The notes below the pieces were generated by a model, which ran no database searches, had not been told where the DNA came from, and saw nothing but the letters and a program-made list of their open reading frames with translations. From Sphingobacteriales bacterium (GTDB lineage Bacteria; Bacteroidota; Bacteroidia; Chitinophagales; LD1), in NCBI GenBank assembly GCA_018262795.1, contig JADFDM010000010.1:1-64000 (forward strand): a stretch of DNA of 64,000 nucleotides. The letters run 5' to 3'. This document shows, piece after piece, positions 21,609 through 44,838 of this stretch. Position 1 is the first letter of the stretch; each line of letters opens with the position of its first letter. The position numbers and the translations under genes are program-made.

Positions 21609-22607
21609 GTGAATCAGAAAAATTTTCATCAGGTTGATTTTGACCAACCCCATCCGCAGCGAACTCGAGCAATACTGAAGGCGCACCCCGAAGTAAAAAA
21701 ACTTGTTGGCCGCAATCCCTGGACGGCTGCTGTGATGTTGGGCATATTAGTGCTTCAAAGCGGTATCGCTTATGGCATGGGAAAGTTGGGAATTCATTAC
21801 TGGTGGGCAAGTTTGATAGTTGCTTACATGATCGGAGCCTTTGCTAACCACGCCATGTATGTAATTATTCATGAAGCTACACATAACCTCGTGTTCACGA
21901 GTAAAACTTGGAATAGATGGGTGGCTATTATTGCCGATTTACCCAACACATTTCCCGGCTCTATGGGATTTAATGTGTACCATTTAAAGCATCATGCGCA
22001 TCAGGGCGACTATGATTACGATGCTGACTTAGCCAACCGTTGGGAGGCAAAACTAATTGGCAACACTGCCTTGGGTAAAGCCCTTTGGCTCTTGCTTTTT
22101 CCGGTGTTTCAAATTACGCGGCCTCCCCGGTTGAAAGCGATTAAAATGTGGAGCAAATGGAGCTGGTTTAATTTGATGGCAGCGGTGACTTACGATGTGC
22201 TCATTATTTGGCTTTGCGGGTGGAACGGCATGATTTATCTCTGGGCATCTTTTGTTTTTTCTATTGGTCTGCACCCGGTTGGTGCGCGCTGGATTCAGGA
22301 ACATTACACCACCGATTCATCGCAGGAAACCGCCAGTTATTACGGCATTCTCAATATTCCCGCGCTGAATGTGGGATACCATAATGAGCATCACGATTTC
22401 CCTTCTATTCCTTGGAACAACCTGCCCAAGTTAAAGGCGCTGGCTCCTGAATTTTACGAGCCGTTGCAATCTCATCACTCTTGGGGAAAGTTATTGTTGC
22501 GATTTCTTTTTGATAAAGACTACAGCTTGTTTTCGAGGGTAGAACGGATGCAAAATGGAAAGGTGGCTTTTGAAAAAAAGAAAAGAGGCTTAGCGAGTGA
22601 GGCCTAA
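21609..22607 (+). CDS. Membrane desaturase, close relative of dihydroceramide delta-4 desaturase (DES1)
   Basis: A 332-residue membrane di-iron desaturase. The N-terminus has the sphingolipid desaturase signature (FDQPHPQRTRAILKAHPEVK, residues 11-30), known from animal and plant DES1. The three histidine boxes are HEATH (88-92), HLKHH (125-129) and HNEHHDFP (258-265), at nearly the spacing of human DEGS1 as I recall it. Other shared words are SYYGxLN, NVGYHNEHHDFP and GLHPxxxxxIxEHY. Four or so membrane segments lie between. The likely reaction is trans double-bond insertion into a dihydroceramide-type base. GTG at 21609 is chosen since TATACTTG (21583-21590), a promoter-like motif, would lie inside a longer version. 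No sphingolipid synthesis gene is adjacent. Confidence 0.85.
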   Translation: MNQKNFHQVDFDQPHPQRTRAILKAHPEVKKLVGRNPWTAAVMLGILVLQSGIAYGMGKLGIHYWWASLIVAYMIGAFANHAMYVIIHEATHNLVFTSKTWNRWVAIIADLPNTFPGSMGFNVYHLKHHAHQGDYDYDADLANRWEAKLIGNTALGKALWLLLFPVFQITRPPRLKAIKMWSKWSWFNLMAAVTYDVLIIWLCGWNGMIYLWASFVFSIGLHPVGARWIQEHYTTDSSQETASYYGILNIPALNVGYHNEHHDFPSIPWNNLPKLKALAPEFYEPLQSHHSWGKLLLRFLFDKDYSLFSRVERMQNGKVAFEKKKRGLASEA

Positions 22608-31240: not shown

Positions 31241-32641
31241 TTACTTAGGCTCTATGGGTTGCAGCTTCATTTCTTTTGGCGCAGTTTGTTTTTGAGGAAC
31301 TACCTCTTCATCTGCTTTGGCTTTCTTTTCTTTCTTTTTGGGAGTATCGTTCACTAAAGAAATGCCGGTGCTGCCGTCTGCCTTTTTGCCTCCTTTCTTA
31401 AAGTCAAACAGCAACGAGAAGCGAAGCGTGTTGTCTAATGGATTGCGCTGAATGGTAGTTGGAATCAAGTAAGAAAAATTCAATCCTACGATGCTGTATT
31501 TAACGGTTAAGCCCGCAGTTAAGAATTGGCGATTCCCTTTTGATGCCGGCTCATAGAAGTATCCGAAGCGCACCCCGAATTGTTTGTTATACATATATTC
31601 CATTCCAACCCCCACAGAGGTTTCTCTCAACTCTTCTTTGGAGCGGCTTCCTTTGATTCGGGTTACCTTGCCGTCTTTATCCATATACATCAAGCCCGGA
31701 GCATCGTTAAACGAAGTAAACATTCCGGTAATCGGACTTTTCTGTTTCCAGTCGCCAATCTTATCACCGTCCTTGTCGTAATTAGGGTTAATGGTATCTC
31801 CGCCTCCTTCAAAAGGAATGGTATAAGGTTGTGGTGTAGGAACCATTAAACGATTCACATCTAAGTAAACCCCTACTGCATTTTTCTCACCAATGTTTAA
31901 GGTATAGCCTAATCCGATGCCGAGGTTGGTAGGGATGTAATCAGAGTTTCTAGCATTGTGTGTGTAAGAGATTTTGTTGCCGATGTTGGAGATATTCATC
32001 CCGGCATATAAATCGTGTGAAATGTTGGAGTTATCCTTATGAAAATTCTTTTGGTAGGTCCATGAAATATCTGCTGCTCCGGCATATCCCGGATAAGTGG
32101 GCACTCCATCTATTCCCACATTGGTCAGATTAGAGTAAACGAAACGAAGGGTAGCTGCCAAGGCGAAGTTATCACCTAATTTACGGGCATAACCGGCATC
32201 AATGCTAAACTCGTTGGGTTTAAAATTTCCTATTTCCTGTCCGTTATAATCGGTGAAGGTGATATTCCCCAATGAGAAATATTTAATACTCATTTGTACG
32301 GTCTGCTTCTCTTTTACTTTGTAATATCCGGCTAATCCCGCCATGTAAATATCATTGACAAGGGACTTCAGCCACGGAGTGAAAGAAACCGCAAAACCGA
32401 AATCCTTTTCGTTGAAAGCCATGCGTGAAGGATTGGCGTAAAGCGAATTAATATCTGCGGGAGTAGCTATTCCTACATCTCCCATACCGCCTGCGCGGGC
32501 ATCGGGGTTAATCCGTAAAAACGGAACCGCAGTGGTGACGGTGTTGACTAACTTTCCATCTTTTTCGGAAAGGTTCAATTGACCAAAAGCCGGCATAATG
32601 GCAGTGAGGGTGATGGCAAGCGCAAAAAACTTATTCTTCAT
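31241..32641 (-). CDS. porV: Type IX secretion outer-membrane protein PorV (LptO)
   Basis: A 466-residue FadL-like outer-membrane barrel that carries type IX cargos from the translocon to the PorU sortase. A signal peptide ends at AFGQ (about 21). The family N-terminal words are clear: VPFLRINPDARAGGMGDVG (38-56) and NSLYANPSRMAF (about 65-76), then VSFTPWLKSL and a barrel. The C-terminal 50 residues are a Lys/Glu/Pro-rich extension after the barrel (KKKEKKAKADEEVV). It follows porU by 85 bases in the same direction, likely one operon. Confidence 0.92.
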   Translation of the reverse strand: MKNKFFALAITLTAIMPAFGQLNLSEKDGKLVNTVTTAVPFLRINPDARAGGMGDVGIATPADINSLYANPSRMAFNEKDFGFAVSFTPWLKSLVNDIYMAGLAGYYKVKEKQTVQMSIKYFSLGNITFTDYNGQEIGNFKPNEFSIDAGYARKLGDNFALAATLRFVYSNLTNVGIDGVPTYPGYAGAADISWTYQKNFHKDNSNISHDLYAGMNISNIGNKISYTHNARNSDYIPTNLGIGLGYTLNIGEKNAVGVYLDVNRLMVPTPQPYTIPFEGGGDTINPNYDKDGDKIGDWKQKSPITGMFTSFNDAPGLMYMDKDGKVTRIKGSRSKEELRETSVGVGMEYMYNKQFGVRFGYFYEPASKGNRQFLTAGLTVKYSIVGLNFSYLIPTTIQRNPLDNTLRFSLLFDFKKGGKKADGSTGISLVNDTPKKKEKKAKADEEVVPQKQTAPKEMKLQPIEPK

Positions 32642-32726
32642 ACGTTAGGGTATTCGGTTGAGTTGGTATTACCTGATTTTACGTAAATGTGGAGCTATAT
32701 AAAGTTTTTTGGTCAAGGGGGTAAAT

Positions 32727-35700
32727 CTATCTTAAAACAACCAATTTTTCAAATTTGTGTGCAGAGTTTCCCTGTGAGTCGCGAACGTTTAGCTTATACA
32801 CGTAAACGCCCTTGCCTATTGGGTCTCCATAATCATCTCGTCCGTCCCAGTCTATATCATTTACTCGAAATCCTTCACAATGTACCTCATCGCGGAGAGT
32901 TTTTACAATCCGCCCGCTGATGGTGTAGATTTGAATTAATACGGATAAATCGTCACAAGGTTTGTTATGCTCAAACATAAATTGTGTGTGCGTAGTAAAA
33001 GGGTTGGGGTAATTGAATACATGAGTGAGGGCTAATTTAGCATTGGAGGCCACTACAAACTCGGTGTAATCTTCCGAGGAATTATTCTGAATATCCCACG
33101 ATTTTACTTTCAAGGTGTGGTGGCCGTCTGCTAATTTGCTGAAGGGATATTTTACAGACCCCTTTTGAAAACTGTCCAAAGCACTTTCGTAATAATCGTT
33201 CAGCACAATCTTGTGTTGCGCATCGTTATCTAAGTCGGCTGTGAGGTCGTGCCCAATGCCGTTACCTACGGTATTGATACCGCTGGCATCCTCAAACTTC
33301 ACTAACAGAATAGGCGACTCATCGGTAGTGCCGCCAAACACAAACTTTTCATCGTTCATGTATATTTTCATTTGAGGGCCTTCTCCATCTAGATTAAAAG
33401 AGTCGGCAGAGCCGCCTATTACAATATCATTATTGTATCCATGCGCGTCCACATAATTTCCATTATCGGCATAGTAACTAATACGGCCATTGCCAAACTG
33501 GTAGTTGATATCCTTGGGAACCATAAAGGTGAAACTGAAATCTCCATTGGTCACACTGGCCTTCCCTTTAAACAAAAGATTCTTATACAATTTGAAATTG
33601 CGGATCGGGCTGTCAGCATCATTACCAAGTGTTTGAAGGGTAGAAATTTTATCGTAAACCGTGGGATAAACTACCCCGTTAAAGGAAGTCATCTTGTTGT
33701 TGTTGTCATCTCTCACTTCTCCTTTAAAGGTGATGAGCGAGAGCGCTTTCAGCGTGTCGTGTGGTTGAGTGATTGGCCGATTATTTACTTCAGTAGTGAC
33801 TACGTTATAACGCGGGTAATTTATCTGCAATGCAGGGTCGCCTAACAGCACAAATTTGCGGGTGTTGTTGATGTCTGTTTGTACCGTGTTTTTGGTTTCC
33901 ATAGTCAACTCTCCTAAGGTTGGGTCTCTTCCTTCGTAAGGCTCAAACATGTATTTGAAAACCTTGCTGTTCAGCGCTTCGTTAGCATTAGAGTAAACCA
34001 GCCTCACCGTAGTAATAGAGGCAATGGCCCCTCCCTTTCCGTTTACAATCAGCCACTCCCCGGCTGTGCGGGCAGGGAGGTCAAACCTACTGAACTCACA
34101 GGTGGCAGTGATAAATAGCGGTAGTCTTTCTTTATTCTCTAACTGCACAATGTCGCTCATGTTGAAAATGCGCTCATGTGCCCAGTTGGTTACGCCTCCG
34201 TGGCCAATCCAGTTCACGATCAGGGTACCTGAATTTAATCTGTTGAGGATAGCTGTATTCACATCCGGGTAGCGATCTCCGGCCGGGGTGCTCAGTTGTT
34301 TGTAGGCATCCAAGTATATCTTGTCGTAGTTATACACCGGATACAAGGCTCTAGTGCTTTCGCAGATATTGTCAGAGGCATCTAAGTGAGTATCGCCATC
34401 CTGATCATCTCCAATAAAAGTGACAATATTTCGCCAGCTATTATTCGCAGTAATCTGCACGCAGGTAGGTCCTGAAGTAGAGGGGTGCTTATAGTTTTTA
34501 ATTTTATTCACCACATCCCAGGCTTCCTGTTCGCTGGCTACGGGTATTCGGCCTACAGCCACATCTAATTTCTGAGCGGCATTAGCAATGTTGCCCCCTT
34601 CGTTTATATCTAATAAACCATAAAAATCATCGGAGGTAAAGGAGGCTGTTTCAGAATACGACTCGTAACTCTGGTAAGTCGGCACAAAATTATTGTTGTC
34701 GGGCACTCGATTTTTCGGGTCGAAGGAACCATCGCCCATCAGCAAGAGATAGCGGGGCATGATAGCGGTATCGCTTCCCGCCCGGTCATACAACATTCGC
34801 ATCAAATTTCGGATGGAGGAAATGTCGGGTTTGCCACAGCCGAATTCATTATATATCTCTGAAAGTTTCACCACATTCACAGAAATACCTTCGTTGCTGC
34901 GATGAAAATTTGCTAACTCTTCTGAGGCAGCTGCGAAAGCATCATAAGTTACTATTACCATATCCGGCTCTCCGATAGCATGCAAGTTTTGATTGGCTAC
35001 CTGTCCTATATATTCCGGGTTGCTGAAAGAACCATAGGGGCTGAACGCTATGAATTGTTTCATGTTATCGGTAGCCGTTGTAAAGGATAAGGTAGAGCCG
35101 TTTACTGAAGATGGCATCCGTTTAATATCACCCACGTTGCTAACATCCCAAACGCTCAAATTGCCGGAGGCATTTCCTAATCGAAATTCAGAGATGTTTC
35201 CGGTTCCTACCGATGAAATATTTCGAAACGTCATGGCATCTCCGCTCATCGTTAAGGCTCGCTTTAGGTGAAGTTCAAACCAGTCTATATAAGTAGCAGC
35301 GGTTCCGGTAGGGTCGGCATTCGGTGAAAAAGTATAAACCACGCTAATGGCGGTAGAGGCAGCCGTAAACGTGGCAGAAGCAGTATAAGGCAAAGCTCCG
35401 GGTGGATAAATATTGTTGGGGTTAATGCCGGTATCTGTATGTGTAATCAGCGTTTGCCCATTAACGGTGACGGTGGTATGCGAGCCATAATTGGTTTTCG
35501 CTCCAATAGAAGAAATGATTTGTACCGGAACCGAGGTAATAATATTGGGGAAGTCGAAGGAAAAACTTTTAGTGTTATTGAATCCGGTCATTTTATCGCC
35601 CAACCAGGTTCTGCCGCTTTGGAGGGTGTTCTCCTCATCGCTTTCGTGGTAGGCGTATTCGTCAAAATCAGTGATTACATGGTTGGCGCTTCCTGCCGAT

Positions 35701-36596
35701 GGTGCTGTTTGAATCCGTTTGCCGGTTCCTGCATCGGTGGTGAGGAAATAAAAATTCTTATCAGAGAACAAATTCTTTTCGTGCGAAAAAGTCTGCGTAG
35801 TGGCATTGTATTTCCACTGGTCTGCCATTTGTCCGTAGAACAAAAGATAATCGTCCTGATCTAAGTGGTTGTTGCCGTTATTGTCCACAACCATAGTGGG
35901 GTTTTCGAGCAAATCATCGGGATAATAAGTAGCGTTATCATCGGGCAACATACCTCCTCCGTTTCCAAAAATTGCAAGTCGGTTCAGGTTGATGTTTTCA
36001 GGATTTACCCCCAGTTTATTTTTTACAAAATCATAATCTACTTTATAAATGCCTTCGGTGGCCACTGCAATTTTGTACCAAGTGCCACCCGCCAACACCG
36101 AATTAGAAGCATAAGAATTAGTCGAGCGATGTTGCGGCTTTGGAGTGACTGAAACTCGCAGGGTAAAACTCTCTAATTTTTCAACTTGCCCACCAGCATT
36201 CTTTCTAAAGGGGAGAAACTCCACAAACACTCCGGGTCTTTTCCGGAGATACGAAAGAGTAGCTTTTGGGTCTATATTTTCGTTGATAAAACCAATGCTG
36301 CCCTTATCTATAGATACAGGAGAGTAAACCGGATTAACGAGCTGCACCGATACCTCACCGGAAACAGCGACCGGAATTCTTTCTCTGTAAACCGGTAACA
36401 GATTGTACTGCTCATAAGGGGCGGCATCTGTAAAAGTGGGCTGAGTAATAGTTTTAGCGTCCAGTGTATGAAAAGTTTTTGCTTTCGGAAGCCAGTCAAT
36501 TTTTCTCACAAAATCTTGTGCATTGGCAAATGACCCGCCAATCATTAACAGCATTAAAAATACTGCCCCTCTCTTTAAAACCGAAAAACTTCGCAT
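32727..36596 (-). CDS. porU: Type IX secretion sortase PorU
   Basis: A 1289-residue gingipain-family (peptidase C25) protein that removes C-terminal sorting domains and attaches cargos at the cell surface. A signal peptide ends near NAQ (about 27). The peptidase domain has LIVNWIGHGGVTNW with catalytic His799 and LFITATCEFSRFD with Cys833. The last 90 residues resemble a sorting domain themselves (VFNYPNPFTTHTQFMFEHN ... GKGVYVYKLNVRDSQG), which PorU keeps. Start ATG at 36596 gives the signal peptide; an ATG nine codons upstream is possible. It is divergent from the PorP/SprF gene and sits ahead of porV, the usual Bacteroidetes order. Confidence 0.92.
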   Translation of the reverse strand: MRSFSVLKRGAVFLMLLMIGGSFANAQDFVRKIDWLPKAKTFHTLDAKTITQPTFTDAAPYEQYNLLPVYRERIPVAVSGEVSVQLVNPVYSPVSIDKGSIGFINENIDPKATLSYLRKRPGVFVEFLPFRKNAGGQVEKLESFTLRVSVTPKPQHRSTNSYASNSVLAGGTWYKIAVATEGIYKVDYDFVKNKLGVNPENINLNRLAIFGNGGGMLPDDNATYYPDDLLENPTMVVDNNGNNHLDQDDYLLFYGQMADQWKYNATTQTFSHEKNLFSDKNFYFLTTDAGTGKRIQTAPSAGSANHVITDFDEYAYHESDEENTLQSGRTWLGDKMTGFNNTKSFSFDFPNIITSVPVQIISSIGAKTNYGSHTTVTVNGQTLITHTDTGINPNNIYPPGALPYTASATFTAASTAISVVYTFSPNADPTGTAATYIDWFELHLKRALTMSGDAMTFRNISSVGTGNISEFRLGNASGNLSVWDVSNVGDIKRMPSSVNGSTLSFTTATDNMKQFIAFSPYGSFSNPEYIGQVANQNLHAIGEPDMVIVTYDAFAAASEELANFHRSNEGISVNVVKLSEIYNEFGCGKPDISSIRNLMRMLYDRAGSDTAIMPRYLLLMGDGSFDPKNRVPDNNNFVPTYQSYESYSETASFTSDDFYGLLDINEGGNIANAAQKLDVAVGRIPVASEQEAWDVVNKIKNYKHPSTSGPTCVQITANNSWRNIVTFIGDDQDGDTHLDASDNICESTRALYPVYNYDKIYLDAYKQLSTPAGDRYPDVNTAILNRLNSGTLIVNWIGHGGVTNWAHERIFNMSDIVQLENKERLPLFITATCEFSRFDLPARTAGEWLIVNGKGGAIASITTVRLVYSNANEALNSKVFKYMFEPYEGRDPTLGELTMETKNTVQTDINNTRKFVLLGDPALQINYPRYNVVTTEVNNRPITQPHDTLKALSLITFKGEVRDDNNNKMTSFNGVVYPTVYDKISTLQTLGNDADSPIRNFKLYKNLLFKGKASVTNGDFSFTFMVPKDINYQFGNGRISYYADNGNYVDAHGYNNDIVIGGSADSFNLDGEGPQMKIYMNDEKFVFGGTTDESPILLVKFEDASGINTVGNGIGHDLTADLDNDAQHKIVLNDYYESALDSFQKGSVKYPFSKLADGHHTLKVKSWDIQNNSSEDYTEFVVASNAKLALTHVFNYPNPFTTHTQFMFEHNKPCDDLSVLIQIYTISGRIVKTLRDEVHCEGFRVNDIDWDGRDDYGDPIGKGVYVYKLNVRDSQGNSAHKFEKLVVLR

Positions 36597-36717
36597 AGAA
36601 CCGTGATAAAACAAACGTATCATTATTTTTGGGCGTTTTTATCGAAAGCGCGCAATAAAACGAGGTGCTTTTGGTTTTATTTCGCAGCCGAATTTATTTT
36701 CTGCCTGTAATATTAAA

Positions 36718-43833: not shown

Positions 43834-44838
43834 CTACTCAAACGTTCCGTAACTCTTGTTTTCGTTCTTACTTTTTAGATAGAGTGCGGCCGTTTCTTCA
43901 ATGGTTTGTTTCACAGGGCGGAAACGGTAGCCAAGCATTCGGCTTATCTTTTCGTTGCTGTAGCGAAAATCTATTGCCGTGAGGGAGGCGCTTTCTTTGG
44001 TGAGAATCGGGGGTTGGCGTGTGATCCATGAACGCAGTAGCTGCACCCGCCAGGCAATGGCCATTAACCATTTTCCTGCCGGAATAAAAGCGCGCTTCAC
44101 TTGTAGGGTATCGGCTATCATCCATACCAAATCGCGCAATGAAATATTTTCTGCCACCAGCAGAAATTTTTCACCGTTGATGTCACTCTCCATCAGTCGG
44201 TAAATACACTCTGTCACATCGCGCACATCTACAAAACCATTCACTGCGTGGGCATAAAACCAAAGCCCGCGATCTACTTCGGGAAACAATAAATTGGGTG
44301 GTTGGCTCCACCAGCCACCGCCAATAATAGTAGCCGGGCAGGCAATGACCACCTCTAATCCCTCGGCATGTGCGCGCCATGCTTCGCGCTCGCCATACTG
44401 CTTGCTGCGGTAATACCAAGGGCATTTGTGGATGCCTGAATCGTCATAACTTTCATCAATCACCTTCCCCATGCGGGGAAAGCCGAAGGCCGCTTCGGAG
44501 CTAACATGCAACACTTTCTTTACACCAGAGTATAAAGCCACATTCATCACATTGGCAGTGCCTTCTCTGTTCACTTTCACCATTGCGTTTGCATCGGAAG
44601 GCAGAAAGGAGATGAGTGCAGCGCAGTGATACACTTTTTCCACTCCCTGCATGGCATCTTCTAAGGAGGGGATGTCGAGAATATCACCTTCCATCCATTC
44701 CACTTGCTGTGCCGCAGCGCCCAGCAGACTGAGGTCAGAGGTTTTACGCCTAAGTGCGCGCACCTGCTCGCCTTTGGCCAACAACAATTTCGTAAGATAT
44801 GAACCTAACAATCCGGTGGCTCCCGTGACAAATACCAT
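43834..44838 (-). CDS. NAD(P)-dependent epimerase/dehydratase, extended SDR
   Basis: A 334-residue extended short-chain dehydrogenase, closest in plan to dihydroflavonol-4-reductase-like proteins. The Rossmann motif is GATGLLG (6-12); the HCAALIS segment is at 71-77; Ser113/Ser114 precede the catalytic Tyr142-xxx-Lys146 (WYYRSKQYGE); and CPATIIGGG follows. Substrate unknown: similar Bacteroidetes proteins act on hydroxysteroid-like, ladderane-like or sugar compounds, none of which is supported by neighbours here. The AnmK gene lies upstream in the same direction with a 112-base gap. Confidence 0.85.
   Translation of the reverse strand: MVFVTGATGLLGSYLTKLLLAKGEQVRALRRKTSDLSLLGAAAQQVEWMEGDILDIPSLEDAMQGVEKVYHCAALISFLPSDANAMVKVNREGTANVMNVALYSGVKKVLHVSSEAAFGFPRMGKVIDESYDDSGIHKCPWYYRSKQYGEREAWRAHAEGLEVVIACPATIIGGGWWSQPPNLLFPEVDRGLWFYAHAVNGFVDVRDVTECIYRLMESDINGEKFLLVAENISLRDLVWMIADTLQVKRAFIPAGKWLMAIAWRVQLLRSWITRQPPILTKESASLTAIDFRYSNEKISRMLGYRFRPVKQTIEETAALYLKSKNENKSYGTFE

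Follow-up and report, generated by a model that had tools for sequence, protein, structure and literature searches.

We find that the gene at positions 21609-22607 (+ strand) of the 64,000-nucleotide stretch of DNA analysed here (hereafter the window) encodes what is, on the evidence of its sequence, a genuine member of the sphingolipid delta-4 desaturase (DES) family; the protein is a new, bacterial representative of this family, whose characterised members are eukaryotic. The most likely reading of the protein, labelled P0001, and one that we consider probable, is that it is a dihydroceramide C4 desaturase. To our knowledge, sphingosine-like unsaturated lipids are usually said not to be made by bacteria; given that a genuine relative of the animal enzyme converting dihydroceramide to ceramide and a serine palmitoyltransferase (SPT) occur in one genome, the source bacterium, a member of the Chitinophagales, probably makes such lipids.

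The reading frame begins with GTG, codes for 332 amino acids of a membrane di-iron protein and is open to its stop codon; the reverse strand of the same interval is interrupted by stops. Pfam places an N-terminal Lipid_DES domain (PF08557) at 21615-21722 (+), with 45.7 bits and an E value of 4.3e-12 against a curated cut-off of 23, and a FA_desaturase domain (PF00487) at 21801-22463 (+), with 95.3 bits and an E value of 6.7e-27; in a genome-wide search the Lipid_DES score of the same protein is 49.7 bits. The iron-ligand histidines lie in three boxes on the + strand: HEATH (residues 88-92, 21870-21884), HLKHH (residues 125-129, 21981-21995) and HNEHH (residues 258-262, 22380-22394), the last of these inside NVGYHNEHHDFP. 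Across 21 aligned relatives every box histidine (H88 and H92; H125, H128 and H129; H258, H261 and H262) is invariant, as are N259 and E260, and the bacterial relatives share the DES motifs too. The protein also contains the motif SYYGILN, of the SYYGxLN type. The earlier note had located the three boxes and both motifs exactly, and the DQPHPQRTRAILKAHPEVK signature that it described is present within the Lipid_DES match.

Compared with a relative that is 89% identical (L046, from a Chitinophagales metagenome-assembled genome), the gene differs at 39, 20 and 165 first, second and third codon positions, respectively, a pattern that indicates strong purifying selection. This pattern and the invariant box histidines show that the open reading frame is not a chance one. 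The gene is retained in 14 of the 18 genomes of the source genus and is, to judge by these signatures, a maintained and functional gene.

Within the source genome (3.48 Mb, 98% complete) no protein besides P0001 matches Lipid_DES, and the three other PF00487 proteins encoded there are without this domain. No NCBIfam equivalog was found for P0001, and a search of the PDB for a DES sequence returned none. The AlphaFold model of P0001 has a pLDDT of 85.6 and in a fold search is weakly similar to the membrane di-iron enzymes AlkB and stearoyl-CoA desaturase; the matches are generic membrane di-iron ones, and the top ones are unexplained chains of plastid motor complexes.

For comparison with the eukaryotic enzymes we used provisional sequences of human DEGS1, human DEGS2 and Arabidopsis DES1, which serve as yardsticks only. 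P0001 aligns with the DEGS1 yardstick over 324 residues at 37% identity (E 3e-72), and L157, another desaturase of the source genome, is alignable with it over 42 residues only. Like P0001, the DES1/DEGS1 enzymes of animals and plants combine PF08557 with PF00487 and carry the three boxes at nearly the same positions, as well as SYYGxLN and NVGYHNEHHDFP. They differ in that P0001 is bacterial, falls in a different branch of the family in the tree described next and comes from a genome without cytochrome b5. In a phylogenetic tree rooted on the very distant L157, the eukaryotic yardsticks cluster within the bacterial family, beside L002, L003, L183, L184 and L186 (support 100/99), and P0001 falls in another branch with sequences from Verrucomicrobia and Alphaproteobacteria (100/98). 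The earlier note's description of P0001 as a homologue of the animal enzyme stands as far as the family is concerned, since the Lipid_DES match exceeds its cut-off, but P0001 appears to lie apart from those bacterial sequences that come nearest to the enzymes of animals and plants. The bacterial L184 and L002 are 48-50% identical to the DEGS1 yardstick, about as close to it as the plant yardstick (52%).

It is the gene neighbourhoods of homologues that most strongly indicate a sphingolipid substrate. Relatives are encoded at 581 or more bacterial loci; in 34 of the best 80 of these, the gene for an alpha-oxoamine synthase, a class of enzymes that includes SPT, lies within about 6 kb of the desaturase, almost always on the same strand. 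Three lineages each have an arrangement of their own, and next to the desaturase there is a GNAT, FA_hydroxylase, CDP-OH_P_transf, GT21 or GT4 protein. The order in Verrucomicrobia is desaturase, FA_hydroxylase, alpha-oxoamine synthase, CDP-alcohol phosphotransferase and GNAT; in Beijerinckiaceae it is alpha-oxoamine synthase, GNAT and desaturase; and in other Alphaproteobacteria the synthase is followed by the desaturase (after a gap of 4 bp in L087) and then a GT4 glycosyltransferase. The synthases of the verrucomicrobial and alphaproteobacterial operons form clades of their own beside the SPT clade, and the residue that they have at the diagnostic column discussed below is Cys or Val. Taken together, the operon parts appear to be those expected of a sphingolipid pathway, namely condensation, N-acylation, hydroxylation, C4 desaturation and addition of a head group. 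Two individual loci are worth recording: L064 (5935-11356) and similar verrucomicrobial loci hold such a five-gene cluster, which resembles a phosphosphingolipid-type operon in soil Udaeobacter, and in Methylocapsa acidiphila (L095, 3163-8158) the synthase, GNAT, desaturase and a GT21 protein of the ceramide-glucosyltransferase family are consecutive, with an FA_hydroxylase nearby.

In the source genome itself, the SPT-type enzyme is encoded on contig C18 (L034/L127). We called SPT from an Ala/Lys diagnostic column together with the tree; we did not accept the score of the SPT model by itself, since BioF, KBL and SulA also reach about 200-370 bits with it. The column is that of SulA Lys281, the one clear active-site difference between SPT and SulA (PMC9304779), and L034 has an alanine there. 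Its best PDB match is the solved Sphingobacterium SPT 3a2b, at 398 bits, the next kind of enzyme scoring 281 bits, and it groups with 3a2b with support of 98/97 in one tree and 100/98 in another. Against the NCBIfam SPT equivalog it scores 490 bits, below the cut-off of 640; apart from a narrow group, SPT-like proteins mostly fall short of this cut-off. The other alpha-oxoamine synthases of this genome are a glycine C-acetyltransferase (L032/L145, above cut-off), the BioF-like L037 and, as a side observation, L038 on contig C11, an outlying synthase-like protein with a very long branch and Gly at the SPT/SulA column. A homologue of the GNAT N-acyltransferase of the DES operons (L161, 399 residues, 135 bits) is encoded on contig C2. 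The earlier note had counted absence of spt from the genome against its reading; a gene for an SPT-type enzyme is there.

From these observations, we infer the substrate of P0001, the position at which it acts and the outcome, a double bond and not a hydroxyl. The backbone of the substrate would be supplied by the bacterium's own SPT, followed by a 3-keto reductase, and would be N-acylated by the candidate N-acyltransferase L161. P0001, as an integral-membrane di-iron oxygenase, would then use O2 and electrons supplied by a donor to take two hydrogens, at C4-C5, from the sphinganine moiety of dihydroceramide, and the product would be a 4,5-unsaturated (sphingosine-type) base. Cytochrome b5 is the electron donor of the animal enzyme; no cytochrome b5 (PF00173) was found in the source genome, so the electrons must come from something other than the animal donor. 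Against this reading, besides that absence, stand the sub-threshold NCBIfam score of the SPT, the separate clades of the operon synthases and the lack of a significant association of DES with SPT by genus (see below). The desaturase gene, too, is linked neither to SPT nor to an obvious lipid operon in the source genome. The desaturase, SPT and L161 genes sit on three different contigs, the neighbours of the desaturase gene in the window encode a tryptophan dioxygenase and a DUF3127 protein, and a Pfam search of the rest of the window revealed no clear sphingolipid gene near it. An extended short-chain dehydrogenase of the epimerase / 3beta-HSD type at 43834-44838 (- strand) is a possible, unspecific candidate for a 3-keto reductase.

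P0001 might act on the same substrate and carbon and yet insert a hydroxyl, giving a phytosphingosine-type ceramide as animal DES2 does. DES1 and DES2 belong to the same family, P0001 has its family and proposed reaction site in common with DES2/DEGS2 (delta-4 desaturase / C4-monooxygenase), and the class to which a sequence belongs does not by itself decide the outcome; DEGS2 has both desaturase and C4-hydroxylase activities (PMC10791800). We nevertheless regard a C4-hydroxylase as unlikely. The third box of P0001 reads HNEHH, whereas that of the DEGS2 yardstick reads HVEHH. Every bacterial relative whose third box is of standard form (122 in all) has the asparagine, as HNEHHD, and so does the DEGS1 yardstick, although the role of this residue as a determinant is putative.

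We give a similarly low probability to the idea that P0001 desaturates or hydroxylates another lipid, either a phospholipid acyl chain or the one that is amide-linked in ceramide, and shares with DES its ancestry alone. PF00487 members act on many lipids, and the source genome encodes the three further ones mentioned above. A bacterial membrane desaturase-type enzyme with sphingolipids as its reported substrate is known: the DesA-type CC_0202 of Caulobacter crescentus is reported to hydroxylate the acyl chain (PMC11324152). It resembles the proposed P0001 in this respect but targets a different carbon, and the Lipid_DES domain is missing from Caulobacter, as it is from every one of the 14 control genomes to which Caulobacter belongs and from the three other desaturases of the source genome. 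The verrucomicrobial operons, moreover, already contain a separate FA_hydroxylase. We also tried P0001 as a known acyl or carotenoid desaturase (DesA, CrtR, CrtW) and rejected this, the NCBIfam models giving only 14-26 bits against cut-offs of 350-500. Such a placement, which the earlier note had recognised as fatal to its proposal, is not what we see: family and tree put P0001 in Lipid_DES, far from L157 and from the acyl-lipid and carotenoid models.

It is very improbable that P0001 introduces a double bond into the cysteate-derived backbone of a sulfonolipid (a capnoid), since the alpha-oxoamine synthases of the source genome comprise only SPT, KBL, BioF and one outlier, with A, N, T and G at the diagnostic column and no SulA-type enzyme found among them, which makes a sulfonolipid route unlikely there, even though six DES-positive genomes elsewhere pair the desaturase with SulA. 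The SulA/CapB pathway of Bacteroidota makes a sulfonic analogue of the sphingoid base. We examined 15 DES-positive genomes. An A-type SPT is present in nine of them and missing from six (G150, G391, G146, G249, G371 and G387), which have SulA orthologues instead. These orthologues (L141, L147, L149, L150, L152 and L153, from G249, G371, G387, G391, G150 and G146) carry the diagnostic lysine, and L141 matches the solved SulA 7u7h at 585 bits. This suggests a desaturated sulfonolipid in the SPT-less SulA lineages, where the capnoid base may be what the DES relatives desaturate. DES-positive genomes that contain SPT have SulA orthologues as well, so the link to SulA is not exclusive.

The desaturase is not an exceptional gene in bacteria, but widespread. 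Of the 395 Bacteroidota genomes that we sampled, 40 (from 26 of 171 genera) encode a Lipid_DES protein above cut-off, and the total of at least 581 bacterial loci with relatives was obtained by scanning one genome per species across 84,980 bacterial and archaeal species. The best 80 of these belong to Bacteroidota, Verrucomicrobia (Udaeobacter and kin), Ignavibacteria, Acidobacteria and Alphaproteobacteria. Two scans of viral contigs for a giant-virus DES, sought as a comparator of eukaryotic type, found none. Within Bacteroidota, the association of DES with bona fide SPT has a p value of 0.0003 by class-level counts and 0.21 when counted by genus, and outside the class almost every genome has SPT-like enzymes. 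We therefore rejected co-occurrence of DES and SPT as the main evidence, its significance depending on related genomes being counted separately. Tentatively, and as a prospect of rather less than even chance, we propose that C4 desaturation of long-chain-base lipids is old and widespread in bacteria, with ceramides as the substrates in some lineages and sulfonolipids in others, and that eukaryotic DES1 and DES2 are one branch inside this diversity, so that animals and plants may have acquired theirs from bacteria.

In animals, the 4,5 double bond is what distinguishes bioactive ceramide from dihydroceramide. Our search of the open-licence PMC literature found no description of a bacterial DES. 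A 2025 paper says that bacteria lack desaturases for higher sphingolipids, yet lists a d18:1 ceramide in Sphingobacterium (PMC12724326), and a survey of the Black Sea, which attributed its ceramide structures to bacteria, found a single double-bond equivalent in the base of about half of them (PMC11334938). The bacterial DES family, with its operon context, offers a candidate gene for such unsaturated bacterial ceramides; an enzyme that uses O2 leaves, by itself, ceramide production in anoxic water unexplained. The hypothesis is testable at once in cultivated carriers, which include Methylocapsa acidiphila, M. aurea, M. palsarum and Methylocella silvestris.

Two further observations concern other genes of the source genome. 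On contig C2, a few kb from L161, a Cas9-like protein of 1370 residues with HNH_4 and RuvC_III domains is encoded (L187, 308-4420, - strand). In the window, at 31241-36623 (- strand), a PorV gene adjoins one for a peptidase C25 protein of 1298 residues; a pair of PorV and a PorU-like sortase is typical of type IX secretion.
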